Assembly (NCBI RefSeq): GCF_010093535.1
Contig: NW_022985188.1
Location: 729,248-793,247, forward strand
Source: Lindgomyces ingoldianus
Taxonomy: Eukaryota; Ascomycota; Dothideomycetes; Pleosporales; Lindgomycetaceae
Length of the DNA stretch: 64,000 nt
Direction of reading: 5' to 3'
The notes below the pieces were generated by a model. The model made no database searches, had not been told where the DNA came from, and saw only the letters and a program-made list of their open reading frames with translations. The position numbers and the translations under genes were made by a program. This document shows positions 12,507 to 56,003 of this stretch, in pieces (within the stretch, counting starts at the first letter, position 1; the number at the start of each line of letters is the position of its first letter).

Positions 12507-12830
12507 TGTCAGATTTGCGCACCTACTGTCAAGACAGGAGGAACGCTTGACGAAAGCTGCTACATAGTACNNNNNNNNNNNNNNNTTGCAGCATGTTGCA
12601 GCAGTTTGCAGCAAATTGCAGAAAATTGCAGCATTTTGCAAGCTGGTCGCGCATAGGGCAAGTGCGCGAGGGACTCGGATCGGCAAAACAAAAAGCCGAG
12701 CAACACGAGTAGAGCAGAAAAAGGATCGAAAAATGAACACAATTAAATACAATCAATCAATCATCCCATACATCATATCCAAACCCATCATTCATCTCAG
12801 GAAGCCTAGAAACAGTGCTTCAATCTGACA
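12507..12830 (+). repeat. Copia-1 3' LTR (contains a 15-N gap)
   Basis: It matches the 5' LTR outside the array. The 15 Ns replace what is 73 bases in the 5' LTR, which exactly accounts for the 58-bp length difference. Confidence 0.9.
12571..12585. other. Assembly gap (15 N) inside the LTR decamer array
   Basis: Fifteen Ns placed at the tandem decamer array of the Copia-1 3' LTR, most likely an unresolved repeat and under-sized. Confidence 0.95.
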
Positions 12831-43674: not shown

Positions 43675-43969
43675 NNNNNNNNNNNNNNNNNNNNNNNNNN
43701 NNNNNNNNNNNNNNNNNNNNNNNNNNNNNNNNNNNNNNNNNNNNNNNNNNNNNNNNNNNNNNNNNNNNNNNNNNNNNNNNNNNNNNNNNNNNNNNNNNNN
43801 NNNNNNNNNNNNNNNNNNNNNNNNNNNNNNNNNNNNNNNNNNNNNNNNNNNNNNNNNNNNNNNNNNNNNNNNNNNNNNNNNNNNNNNNNNNNNNNNNNNN
43901 NNNNNNNNNNNNNNNNNNNNNNNNNNNNNNNNNNNNNNNNNNNNNNNNNNNNNNNNNNNNNNNNNNNNN
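43675..43969. other. Assembly gap (295 N) in the right TIR of element B
   Basis: The left flank is element-B TIR sequence; the right flank is the second part of a Z-family LTR. The missing part should therefore hold the rest of that TIR and about the first 200 bp of the LTR. Confidence 0.9.
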
Positions 43970-50644: not shown

Positions 50645-51450
50645 CAGGTCTTCTCCTTAGTACAGCGATTGAACACCTGTTCAAGCCAGGCTAGTCTAAT
50701 ATCATTGTTAGTCCAGCCAGAGGGGGATGAGGTGATAAAGGCCTCATGTTCTCCTGCCTTGATTGTGTCTACCTAGGCTGATTGAATGCCCTTGTTGGCA
50801 GCCTCATAGATCAGGCTTGGTGGCAGAGCTGATCCATCAGCGCAGATACACGCTAGGACTGTGATCCACGCTTGATTGCCATCCTGGAGTGATGCTCTGA
50901 CTTCCTTTCTCTCCCACATTCGTCGGCTGAATATCCTCTTTGATCTGCCAACGATACCAATTAGGAAGCCTTTCTTATCCATATTGTAGGTATGACGAGG
51001 TTCTATCTGGTGTTGATTGATCTTGCTGTGTAGCAGGTCGAAGTAGAGGCGATATTTATCCTCTGAATCAGCTTTGTGGCGATTGCTGTCCATGCTGACT
51101 GTCCATTGCGAGACGAGATGAATGCTGTGTTGGTTGATGAAGCGGGTAACCCAGCTCTCGCTGACTGCCTTCTTAGCCACTGCAGAGGCGAAATTTTGAA
51201 TCATCTCCCTAGTAGGAGGTATATGTCTCTCTGTGAGTCCTTCGATATATCGTACAAGCCCCTGCTCTTGCTGTAGGTTGAGCTTCTGCTGGTTGATGTT
51301 CTTGGCTTTATTTGGGGCCTGAACGCGCTTGTGGCTTCGGGATAACGTAGTTCGATTTACACCGTAGATAGCAGCAATATTTCTGTACGAAAATGATTCT
51401 CCTAGATTCAAGGATTCAATAGCCGTAATCGCGTCCTCGATTGCCTCCAT
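50645..51450 (-). pseudogene. Pogo/Fot1-type transposase, broken and 3' truncated
   Basis: Start ATG 51450 (MEAIEDAITAIESLN). The N-terminus has a psq-type helix-turn-helix (SYRNIAAIYGVNRTTLSR) and then a CENP-B/Tc5-type DNA-binding region (RYIEGLTERHIPPTREMI...WVTRFINQH). The DDE catalytic domain begins with YNMDKKGFLIG (first Asp; the usual Glu after Asp is Lys here), then GRSKRIF and ITVLACICADG. A TAG at 50775-50773 replaces a likely Trp codon, after which the same frame continues with FITSSPSGWTNNDI and LAWLEQVFNRCTKEKT to about 50645 and stops at the dynamin junction. The second Asp region is present in part; the third acidic residue and the C-terminus are lost. Base composition is normal, so RIP has not acted strongly. 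Confidence 0.85.
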
Positions 51451-51554
51451 ATTGATAGAGTTATGACGCGTCAAATGGAGGAAATATTTTGGTGTTTTGG
51501 TGTTGGGTGGCTCGTCACGCGAAGTGGCTCGGCACGCGTACAGACACGTCACAT
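51451..51554 (-). mobile_element. 5' end of the pogo-type element with paired subterminal repeats
   Basis: In transposase sense the element starts at TA followed by ATGTGACGTGTCTGTACG. It then carries two similar words, GTGCCGAGCCAC and GTGACGAGCCAC, about 17 bp apart, before the transposase. This is the same layout (ACGT/ATGT at TA, paired subterminal repeats) seen in elements A, B and the 25424 element. The other end of the element is missing. Confidence 0.55.
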
Positions 51555-51574
51555 TATAAAGTGTTATAGACATA

Positions 51575-52523
51575 AAGAAATAACTATAAACTTAAGCTCC
51601 CTTTTATAATAAAAATACACTTATAGTTTTACTCTTTAAAACTTAAAAAGGCTCTAAAACAGATTCTACTATCTATAATAAAGTAAAAGGACGTAGAAAT
51701 AGAATATAAAGTAGAACACATTATAAGCAACTAAAAAAAAAGATAAGAACTTTTAGTTAAATAGAAAGAATAGCTTACTAGTAAAAATATATAAGAACTT
51801 ATTAAGAACTTAATAAACACTTACTAACTATTAAAAAGATATTTATCTTATTTAAATAAAACTAGCTAGAGGACAGCAGCTTAAAAGAGAACACATTCCT
51901 AGCTGCTAAAGAAGGCACCCTACTATTATTAGATAGCAGCAATGTACAAGAACAGGACCCTAGAGACGCTAGCTAAGAAGGAGAAAGACTAGCAGCCTCT
52001 CTCTTAAGTGCTTTAATTTTATTTAATAATAAGAAGTCTTTTTCTAAATACTTTACTCTTTAATTTTAAAAGCTTACTAGCTACTTCTTAAGACATAGTT
52101 TTTTAAGACTAGAATAGCTTTTTTTTTATACTAATAGCTTCTTAGTCTAAAATTTCTTTAGGTTACTTAATAGTTTTAACTACTTTTTTTTAAAACACTT
52201 TTAAGTAGCATCTAAAATAAAGGCATTACACCTACTGCTTTTTTTTTACACACTCTACACACTTGTCTAATAATAAGGTTAGGACATAAGAAGATTTAGA
52301 AGAATAACATAGCTTACAAAGATGCATCTTTACATAATAAAGAGGATTAAGGTAGGAAGCAGCTTGTAAATAATAGATTTAACTCTACTATTAAAGCATA
52401 GTTAATAAAGATAGACCTTTATAAAGTGTTTATTAAAAAGGACTTATAGGTAATAAAAGAATTCTAACACTTATAGTAGAGTAGGCAGAACAGCAAGAAC
52501 GCTGCTAGGGAGGGAGACCTGCG
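51575..52523 (+). mobile_element. 3' end of a Gypsy-2-related chromovirus interior, 5' part missing
   Basis: AT-rich, RIP-mutated. The order of words (an AAGAACTTATTAAGAACTTA-like stretch, later ATACTTTACTCTTTAATTTTAA, then a purine tract AGGGAGGGAGACC before TGTTATAA) follows the 28.7-29.6 kb part of Gypsy-2, i.e. chromodomain tail, 3' UTR and polypurine tract. The pol region is absent; the fragment starts near the pogo relic. Confidence 0.6.
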
Positions 52524-53281
52524 TGTTATAATCTATAACTAGATTAGCTAGAGACTAGTTAATGTGCCCCACTGTAAGGCCGAGATGGCGCTTACGTGCG
52601 ACAGGTATATATACTATTCTGCACCCGAAAATCAACGTTGGTTGATTATTCGTACCTTTTGGTTGTATTAGCGGAGTGGTGCGGAGCCCCGTCCTTACAC
52701 CCACTACCTAAACAACTAGGCATAGAACCCCTTTATGCCTAATAAGAAAGAGCTAGATAAAGAGGATTAGAACTTAGTAAAAGACTATACAAAAACTGCA
52801 TTACCTAATAGAAACACTGCATAAGAGATTATAGTAAGCGCAAGTCTTAGTAACCTAGGACTACAATTACTGCACAACAGATTGCAGTAAGCGTAACACT
52901 TAGCAGGCTAGGCCTGCAATGATTATAAAAATAAAAAAAGAATAAAAAGGCCTTATTAATTAACTTTAAAAGAGTGTAATTAAAGTTTAGTTTATTTTTA
53001 CATAAACTAAGTAGCATTCTAGCTTTATAATAAGCTGTAATACTAGTTGTATATCTTGCACTATATATACCTCTACTTCTGTCCCTAGGACTGTTTGACC
53101 TAGTGCCTATACTGCTGTCTAAGGGCAAACCACAATTCAGCCACCTACTTACCTCCCTAACTAGAGCCACGCTAAGAACTGTACATCTAAGGAAGGCCTC
53201 TTCATAACCTCTGTCACCTAACACAAGCCTGCGTGCTTAGGGCATTCTAAACTAGAACTCTCTTAAGTAAAAATTATAACA
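52524..53281 (+). repeat. LTR of the Gypsy-2-related element (about 758 bp)
   Basis: It starts TGTTATAATC after a polypurine tract and ends near ATTATAACA. It shares the TATATCTTGCACTATATATACC promoter-like block with the Gypsy-2 LTR and then diverges. A patch at 52560-52690 is unmutated and GC-rich. No partner LTR is in the window. Confidence 0.55.
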
Positions 53282-53496
53282 TTAATTAAAGCTATTAAAC
53301 TCTTAGAATTTTTCTTTCTAGTATAGTATAAAGCATGTTATAAAAAAGTAGTTTTCTTTACAGTACTAGTAAAAAAAGTGTTTAATTTTTTCTTTTAAGT
53401 CTTTTTCTATAAGACTAGGTGTTGCGTTTGCTAAAAGGTCAACCTCCTAGCTAGCACAGCAGAAGGATATATATAGACGGATAGCTGTACGCGACA

Positions 53497-53508
53497 CACC
53501 CCCCAGCT
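53497..53508 (-). other. TRIM polypurine tract
   Basis: On the minus strand AGCTGGGGGGTG ends exactly at the downstream LTR, much like the TGAGGGGGTG tract of Copia-1. Confidence 0.7.
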
Positions 53509-53744
53509 CGAACTGTGGAACGAGAGAGGTGAAACATGTTGAAACAACCTCAACACCCTCCTAGCCTAAGCAGAAGAACTTAGAGACAGATCTAGTAAGG
53601 TAGCCTCTGTAATAGACGCACTGCCTAAATGCTCTTTGCTAAGCGTGGGAATTAAACACGCAGTGCTCTAGGATAATGCAATCCTATTAGTGGAGCAGGG
53701 GTGCGCAAATTTTTAAGCGCTAACCATCTACACTACGCCGCGAA

Positions 53745-53757
53745 CCAGGCTCATAAC
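53745..53757 (-). other. TRIM primer-binding site, half-tRNA of initiator Met
   Basis: GTTATGAGCC on the minus strand, immediately next to the LTR, is complementary to GGCTCATAAC, the anticodon arm of initiator tRNA-Met up to the anticodon loop. This internal priming is known for Ty1/copia elements. Confidence 0.7.
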
Positions 53758-54881
53758 TGTTGCGTTTGCCAAAAGGTCAACCTCCCAGCTAGCACAGCAG
53801 AAGGATATATATAGACGGATAGCTGTACGCGACACTAGGTTTAATAGTAATAGCTTTTATTACTATAGTAGTATCTTTATTCTTTACTTTTCTAAAGTCT
53901 AGGCATTTTTAATAAAAGTAGCTTACTTTTTTATAGTTTAGGTAAGCTTTCTTTTAAAGCTACTTTTTTTTTACTTTTTATTTAATAGTAGCTTATTACC
54001 TTTCTTAAGAGTTTTATTATTCTTTTAGAAGGTACTATGTATGTGTTTTATGTAGCTAAGGTCTATTAGTTCTTTACTATATTAGAGAGCCTTCTTTCTA
54101 GGTGCTAGCTTAGGCTTTTAGGCTGCTGCGCCTAGTTTTTTTTTATGTTTACATTTTTTATATTAATTATTATAAGTTACTACTTAATATATTTTTTAAA
54201 AGTATTTAGTTTTCTATTATACATAAACTTATTTTTAATTATGTTATATAGTTTTTTATAAAACATTCTTTCTAAAGCTTTTTAGTCTATTTATTTATAG
54301 ATAGCTAGTTGTTTGTAAAAGCAGGCTGTGTAGTGCTAAACTGTCTCTTTTTCTTACTATAAGGTGTTTATTTTATCTGCTACTACTTTTTCTTTATTAA
54401 CTAGCTTATAAATTATAGTCAAGGCTTTCTTAAATAAGTTTATACTACTAAATATCTTTTTAGTTTAAAGTAAAAGCACACTGCTATTTGTTTTAAAGTT
54501 TATCTAATTATTAGCATAGGGTTAAAACTAGACAGCTAGTAAGCTGTCTAGGTGCAGCCTTATCTATAAGATTATCTTCTTATAGGTCTAGAATGCTCTT
54601 TTATTATATTGCATATATAGGTGGCATTATGTAAAGAAAGGCTTAAGGTTTTTTAAGCTTCTAGTAAAAAGCTTTAAAAAGGCTAGTTTTAAAGTCTTTT
54701 TAAAAGTAATACTAGCTTTTTCTTAAGTAGTATTTTTAAAGTTTAACACTTTAAGTTATAGGGCCTAAATCTATACATTAATAGTTGTAGGTTATTAGTT
54801 CTAGGCTAATTACATAAGAGCTTACTTAAGAGCTATTATTTTACTATTTATAGCCCTTAGCTTTTTAATTTGTTCTACATA

Positions 54882-56003
54882 ATGTACTTTACAGGCAAGT
54901 TGCTTACACACCTAAGTTACTTACTTTTACTAAGACCTTACTAAACTACTTTTTTTATACTAATGTATTCCTAACAACACTACTTAGATGTGCTAAAAAA
55001 AATGTTAGATATAGCTTATACTCTAAGCTTTTAAATAAAATATAAAACTTTTAAAAAAATATACTATAGCTATATATAAAGTTTCTTAAAAGATAATAAA
55101 TAACTATAGCACTAAGTAACTTTTATAAGCTAATTCTATAGCTAACTTATAAAAGCTAAGTAATAATAAAAAGTAAGTAATTATTAAAACTATACTTAAG
55201 CTATATATATAAGAATTTTCTTTTTAAATAGCATTTATAGCTAATATAGCTAATTCTTTACACGCTAAGTATAATTTAGGCTATATTAGTATAAACTAGC
55301 TTAGTATGTTTAAAAAGTGTTATTTAAAGCTTAAAGTAATATTTAAGCATAGTATAACTATAAAAAAGCTTTTTATAAAAGTTCTAGAGTAATTTAAAGC
55401 AAGTTTAGCCTTATAAAAAATATTAAAGCTAAGTATAGTATCTAGAATAATAACATGTACAACTTGAGTAAAATAGGCTTTATTATAGGCTAAATATTTA
55501 TTAACTATACTTATACTTAAAACTTTACTTTAAGCTTTAAATAACACTTTATAAGCAGAGCAAGCTCTGCTAATAAACATACTAGGCTAGTTTATACTAA
55601 TATAGCCTAGATTATGCTTAGTGTGTAAAAAATTAGCTACATTAGCTATAAATGCTATCTAAAGAGATAATTTTTATGTATATAGCTTAAGTATAGTCTT
55701 AATAATTACCTACTTCTTATTATTACCTAGCCTTTATAAGTTAGCTATAGAATTAGCTTATAAAAGTTACTTAGTGCTATAGTTATTTATTATCTTTTAA
55801 AAAACTTTATATATAGCTGTAGTATGTTTTTTTAAAAGTTTTATATTTTATTTAAAAGCTTAAAGTGTAAGCTATATTTAATATTCTTTTAGCACATCTA
55901 AGTAGTGTTGTTAGAAATGCATTAGTATAGAAAAAGTAGTTTAGTAGGGTCTTAGTAAAAGTAAGCAACTTAGGTGTGTAAGCAACTTGCCTGTGAAGTA
56001 CGT
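54882..56003. mobile_element. DNA transposon B copy 2, uninterrupted 1122-bp foldback element
   Basis: Ends ATGTACTTTACAGGC and GCCTGTGAAGTACGT, TA on both sides (54880-54881, 56004-56005). The left about 480 bp match the reverse complement of the right about 500 bp, leaving an unpaired centre of roughly 150 bp. The right arm has an extra small hairpin, GCAGAGCAAGCTCTGC, absent from the left arm. No open frame. It serves as the intact reference that shows how copy 1 was split: the chromovirus went in after CTTTA-like sequence at about 55127, and the Copia-2 element X at AAATA near 55494. Confidence 0.85.

Follow-up and report, generated by a model that had tools for sequence, protein, structure and literature searches.

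Of the published kinds of element that we found, the nearest to the one studied here are the Helenus terminal-repeat retrotransposons in miniature (TRIMs), which are defined by a transfer RNA (tRNA)-like sequence in their long terminal repeats (LTRs). In the sections of the published account used here (Kojima 2024, PMC10886601), the fungal hosts are Pucciniales and some Agaricomycetes, and the fungal members mostly have a primer-binding site (PBS) for a tRNA anticodon loop, that of the initiator methionine tRNA (tRNA-iMet) being the commonest and shared with Copia elements. TRIMs are also reported in an ascomycete, Venturia, in the part of PMC4646964 consulted. Here we describe a 415-bp LTR element of the ascomycete Lindgomyces ingoldianus, located in a stretch of 64,000 nucleotides of contig NW_022985188.1 (called the window below), with a tRNA-like segment in its interior. 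We consider it likely, on the basis of a multi-copy family of such elements, that they are non-autonomous and mobilised by Copia, and that the segment, which resembles glutamine tRNA (tRNA-Gln), is a captured passenger and not a promoter of transposition.

The element resembles Helenus in having the size of a TRIM, a 5-bp target-site duplication (TSD), an anticodon-loop PBS as in most fungal members, and tRNA-derived A and B boxes, which in Helenus mostly occur without a functional tRNA. It differs in that the tRNA piece of Helenus lies in the LTR, whereas here it is interior, after the PBS, and in that the fungal hosts of that paper are Basidiomycota and the present host is an ascomycete (PMC10886601, same sections). 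Helenus is the nearest published kind that we found, and the element reads as a variant of it with an interior tRNA-like piece. FRetro129, a small LTR retrotransposon (SMART) of grasses, is likewise a very short Copia-type non-autonomous element with TGT...ACA ends, a 5-bp TSD and LTRs that are unmatched by those of a helper; however, it is 292 bp long and its interior is 96% identical to that of its helper, whereas our analysis revealed no helper of this kind (PMC3281118, in the portion consulted). Cassandra, a TRIM with 5S rRNA sequence, also has RNA polymerase III (pol III) boxes derived from a small RNA inside a TRIM, but there the 5S rRNA is in the LTR and transcription is reported, whereas the putative promoter boxes of the present element are tRNA-like and interior (PMC10886601, same sections). 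Drosophila copia and yeast Ty5 share the priming at a tRNA anticodon loop (PMC10886601, same sections) and differ in being autonomous. In the open-licence literature, as judged mainly from titles and the beginnings of abstracts, we recognised no TRIM with an interior tRNA-like piece, and the parts consulted of PMC9970103, PMC13041039 and PMC12859917 added nothing on this subject.

The element is of the complete LTR type, and its sense strand is the minus strand of the window. Its parts are the following.

53420..53834, minus strand: whole miniature LTR element, delimited by its LTRs, ends and TSD and by matching rows in the genome.
53758..53834, minus strand: 5' LTR (element sense), 77 bp, with a TATA-like run at LTR positions 22-30 and a T4 at 61-64.
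53420..53496, minus strand: 3' LTR (element sense), 77 bp.
53415..53419, no strand: TSD CTAGG, low side.
53835..53839, no strand: TSD CTAGG, high side.
53757-53748, minus strand: PBS GTTATGAGCC, complementary to the host tRNA-iMet as far as canonical base 39.
53504-53497, minus strand: polypurine-like G run GGGGGGTG (polypurine tract, PPT), adjoining the 3' LTR.
53717..53735, minus strand: tRNA-Gln-like D-arm, with the A box TAGTGTAGATGG at 53735-53724.
53669..53686, minus strand: hairpin TAGGAT/ATCCTA within an outer stem TGCTC/GAGCA, its pairs partly broken among copies.
53643..53661, minus strand: T-arm-like GCGTG...CACGC with a decayed B box GTTTAATTC, which is GTTCRATTC in 7/30 copies.

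The LTRs are 97.4% identical, with 2 differences over 77 bp, and end in TGT...ACA. The PBS abuts the 5' LTR with zero gap, and the order of PBS and PPT is right for the minus strand. No stop-to-stop open reading frame (ORF) of at least 130 aa, the size from which ORFs were listed, overlaps the element, which could hold about 138 aa at most. With a length below 1 kb, two LTRs, a TSD, a PBS and a PPT, and being non-coding at the level of ORFs of at least 130 aa, the element has the features of a TRIM or SMART. The first-pass annotation, made from the window sequence, had proposed a miniature LTR element with these repeats, ends, TSD and PBS-PPT order, and this is confirmed; the A box and the GCGTG/CACGC arm also lie where it had placed them. 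A second copy is not present within the 64-kb window. A 21-nt inverted repeat (81%) at 53339-53359 and 53915-53935 flanks the element, as would be seen after insertion into a palindromic repeat.

The 415-bp sequence was searched against the genome (68.4 Mb, 99 contigs), as the annotation had suggested, and a multi-copy family was found, with at least 42 matching rows; the copy number is a lower bound, since 40 of 280 candidates were scored. The best 30 of the 42 rows, i.e. those closest to the window copy and not a random sample, were aligned. These copies are 412-431 bp long, all have TGT/ACA ends, and the two LTRs of an element differ at 0-6 sites (mean 1.7). The PBS, GTTAT[G/A]AGCC with G at the variable base in 12 copies, is kept at the LTR edge in 30/30. 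An exact 5-bp TSD is present in 28 of the 30, compared with 4 of 870 mismatched pairings that served as a chance control, and the identity as LTR elements is therefore far beyond chance. The two copies without an exact TSD (L009 and L023) are both preceded by GGGTG, which is the end of another unit's interior.

A query consisting of the LTR only found 30 loci, 12 of them with a single LTR within the examined stretch. In one of these (L062), the LTR is preceded by interior sequence close to the end of a contig, and an exact 5-bp TSD is found in 8 of the 11 others. Two loci are compound: L082 (1501-2258) has three LTRs enclosing two interiors, and in L023 (1501-1921 and upstream) interior sequence stands ahead of the first of two LTRs. 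By their layout, both are best described as tandem arrangements in which neighbouring mini elements share an LTR. The loci L075 and L087 were considered as longer helper elements and rejected, since each is a copy of the mini element that has taken up foreign DNA with short inverted repeats at its ends. The insert ends are TGTAAC/GTTACA in L075 (1501-2218, 718 bp) and TGTCACG/CGTGACA in L087 (834-1577, 744 bp), and judged by eye the inserts look like nested miniature DNA transposons.

We now turn to the primer. The Drosophila copia element is primed by a 39-base half of tRNA-iMet. The tRNA-iMet gene of the present host was located in the genome, and the PBS is complementary to this tRNA over 10 nt in the window copy and over 13 nt in L015, the 13-nt form being present in 7/30 aligned copies. 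The complementarity ends at base 38 of the gene, counted as canonical base 39 from the anticodon, and such a half-tRNA-iMet PBS corresponds to the Copia type of primer use. Exact ACAGTTATRAGCCYGG sites number 34 genome-wide, of which, by comparison of lists, 19 coincide with family sites and 15 do not. Four of the 15 were inspected (L094-L097; ACA was built into the search pattern). In L094, GTTATAAGCC is followed, about 3.8 kb downstream and on the same strand, by a degraded Copia reverse transcriptase (RT) domain, and L095-L097 are not tied to any RT domain. L092 and L093 carry, after CACA, GTTATGGGCC, which is one base different from the family PBS; the distance to the downstream Copia RT domains (C52 and C7), which are free of stops and on the same strand, is about 3.7 kb. 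The third stop-free full RT domain, C84, has no such PBS in the 296 bp examined, its contig ending 1.9 kb upstream. Stops, almost all TAG or TAA, interrupt 33 of the 39 Copia RT matches. The Copia elements of this genome are predicted to use the iMet primer, or nearly so. The half-tRNA-iMet PBS of the first-pass annotation thus gains support from the host gene and from Copia elements alike, and because three of the latter carry a PBS that is identical or one base different, trans-mobilisation by Copia is the best reading of the family.

The interior was compared with 30 host tRNAs of the 34 found. On the sense strand, L015, a less decayed copy, is most similar to tRNA-Gln(TTG), at element positions 99-142, i.e. 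in the interior, and on the antisense strand to tRNA-Met, at the PBS. A gap-tolerant alignment places L015 on the host tRNA-Gln from the first tRNA base, with gaps, and the tRNA-Gln-like segment begins where the PBS ends. Its score in L015 (22.5) was equalled by none of 500 shuffles, and shuffles as good were 2/500 for L008, 0/500 for L029 and 2/500 for the window copy. In an earlier segment test with 300 shuffles, those as good by the best score were 1 for L015, 4 for L004, 1 for the window copy, 0 for L002 and 36 for L022, and by the summed score 0, 0, 5, 0 and 85, respectively; the segment tests used the stretch chosen in the first-pass annotation. When the element was scored over its full length and on both strands, 1/300 shuffles reached the best score of L015 and 11/300 that of L029, and the summed sense score over the 30 tRNAs was above all 300 shuffles in both. 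The tRNA-like interior is probably real, and the original suggestion can be sharpened to a tRNA-Gln-like one by the 30 host tRNAs and by the 7/30 copies that have both canonical boxes. The likeness tends to fade with decay, as expected of a tRNA relic. A possible source in a short interspersed nuclear element (SINE) was also considered, and the exact tRNA-Gln A-box stretch without the extra A was found, counting exact matches, at one genome site, which is inside a tRNA-Gln gene.

Three other identities were rejected: a tRNA gene, as the cloverleaf is unrecognised by ARAGORN and the Rfam tRNA model; a SINE, with tRNA head, no LTRs and a target-primed reverse transcription tail, as LTRs and a 5-bp TSD are present; and a retrozyme, as there is no Rfam match at gathering score in the window and no hammerhead ribozyme. 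At E up to 5, the only matches in 53320-53940 were to a snoRNA family and an sRNA family, each well short of its gathering score.

Regarding the state of the boxes, the A box TRGYNNARNNGG is in place and intact in 18/30 aligned copies and decayed in 12/30, and the B box GTTCRANNC is found in 7/30; these seven also have the canonical A box, correctly placed ahead of the B box. The B-box core of the window copy, GTTTAATTC, is one mismatch from GWTCRANNC, and this match taken alone is an ordinary chance match, as estimated from base frequencies. Since the host tRNA-Gln has GTTCGAT, CG is taken as the older state of the B box. Exact patterns, which miss copies with other changes, found 85 D-arm sites genome-wide (GG in 32 and AG in 53, counted by eye), with the PBS 11 nt upstream in 82 of them and 0 for reversed-pattern controls, and 86 T-arm sites (GTTCGATTC 7, GTTCAATTC 2, GTTTGATTC 8 and GTTTAATTC 69, also by eye). 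A non-canonical box is thus present at 53/85 D-arm and 77/86 T-arm sites. For 19-nt windows, 18/243 are as conserved as the D-arm or more so, which makes it fairly conserved, and 125/243 for the T-arm, which is average; for 12-nt windows, the numbers are 74/250 for the A box and 122/250 for the T-arm. Conservation of the boxes does not clearly exceed that of the remaining interior. The hairpin TAGGAT/ATCCTA, previously described as strong, proves not to be special: its pair 150/165 forms in 19/30 copies, and for a 201-nt stretch with the PBS and the greater part of the interior, the predicted folding is not better than that of shuffled sequences (z -0.31). Covariation support is absent among the aligned copies, in which the pairs hardly vary.

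In the favoured explanation, RNA polymerase II would start a transcript in the 5' LTR at the TATA-like run, which the pattern used matched in 28/30 aligned copies. This transcript would be packaged by Copia proteins, the Copia RT would be primed at the PBS by the half-tRNA-iMet, and plus-strand DNA would be primed at the G run. The Copia integrase would insert the element, giving the 5-bp duplication. The tRNA-Gln-like segment after the PBS would be a captured piece of a tRNA or of a SINE head, now a passenger that decays by C-to-T changes resembling repeat-induced point mutation (RIP). The first-pass annotation had instead raised the possibility of a working pol III promoter, and we find it very unlikely that the A and B boxes form one that makes an RNA for use by the element, a role proposed in the case of TRIMp3. 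It is true that both boxes are canonical and correctly ordered in the 7/30 copies, that there is no T4 from the B box to the 3' LTR in L001 and L015, and that the less decayed state is found in copies with differing indels. However, the canonical B box occurs at only 9/86 pattern sites and the A-box GG at 32/85. Pol III starts about 18-20 bp above the A box. With the first base of the A box at element base 100, the start would be expected near bases 80-90, at the PBS, and the RNA would then lack the 5' LTR repeat that is needed for strand transfer and would not be mobilisable. In addition, among the six aligned copies with identical LTRs, three have GTTCGATTC and three have the broken B box GTTTAATTC, which suggests that copies could still move after their B box was broken. 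The PBS-level start, these copies and the TATA-like run of the LTR are the reasons for favouring polymerase II transcription from the LTR, with the tRNA relic as a passenger.

It is important to note that several observations weigh against this explanation. Where a copy has identical LTRs, its B box may have been broken after the insertion, as a 77-bp LTR can stay unchanged while the box decays. The L015 interior was compared with six loci that have a PBS of the Copia type, three of which are linked to an RT domain. It shared with them only the 13-nt PBS, found in three loci, and, elsewhere in L092, a single stretch of 14 nt; the family LTR had zero matches to the same six. Taken over its full length, the window copy is weakly tRNA-like, with 10/300 shuffles as good and a summed score near the null mean, and the decayed copy L022 is indistinguishable from shuffles. 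No tRNA model matched, neither with ARAGORN (window) nor with Rfam (window, L008, L015 and L029); the recognition of a tRNA in the element, which the annotation had proposed as a check, was thus negative. An acceptor stem is not seen, and the cloverleaf is not kept. The 10/300 shuffles and the missing Rfam match, together with 12-nt windows in which the boxes are not more conserved, fit a tRNA-like look that arose by chance, from an A-box match and a T-arm-like hairpin of no common origin. This is nevertheless unlikely, as the less decayed copies are more, and not less, tRNA-like, D-arm and B box stand in tRNA order and orientation, L015 aligns from the first base of tRNA-Gln, and the D-arm ranks fairly high in conservation among 19-nt windows. 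Equally improbable in our judgement is that the segment is kept as an RNA signal beside the PBS, for packaging, dimerisation or primer placement. Its start at the PBS end and the D-stem pairs, which form in 30/30 copies, would agree with this, but these pairs barely vary and therefore carry little information, the folding is no better than that of shuffles, and the A box is decayed in 12/30 copies. A possible but doubtful broader view is that the LTR lineage has kept a tRNA-Gln-derived module after the half-tRNA-iMet PBS through several sub-lineages because it is functional, as a pol III promoter or a tRNA mimic.

We now consider the decay of the family. Two-state columns of the alignment, with each state in at least 2 copies, comprise 64 transitions and 4 transversions, and a CpA context is found in 28 of the 62 columns of known context, compared with 58/218 in the background (binomial p about 0.001). 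The flanks of the window copy have a strong RIP-like bias (TpA/ApT 1.97; CpA+TpG over ApC+GpT 0.54; GC 0.27), and the values for the element itself are 1.64, 1.06 and 0.47, respectively. Around the 30 copies, the flanks have a mean GC of 30.5% and a maximum of 36.6%, compared with 47.5% around 30 tRNA loci. In the window, 4001-43600 and 52000-56000 are very AT-rich (GC about 0.27-0.28), with strong RIP-like dinucleotide bias, beside blocks with GC of about 0.47. The window also contains, at 50773-51573, a 266-aa ORF that by eye resembles a pogo/Tc1-type transposase, and runs of N at 12571-12585 and 43675-43969.

The RIP marks of this element of about 420 bp are light and those of the surrounding DNA strong, which is relevant to the question whether very short elements escape RIP. 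A length near 415 bp may help in this escape, and a younger age explains the observation equally well. Should the tRNA-Gln-derived module be functional after all, an internal pol III start could perhaps be productive in tandem arrays, where it reads through a whole downstream unit. Since a pol III start in the interior gives no normal LTR template, the family would separate the capture of a tRNA from the use of its promoter.
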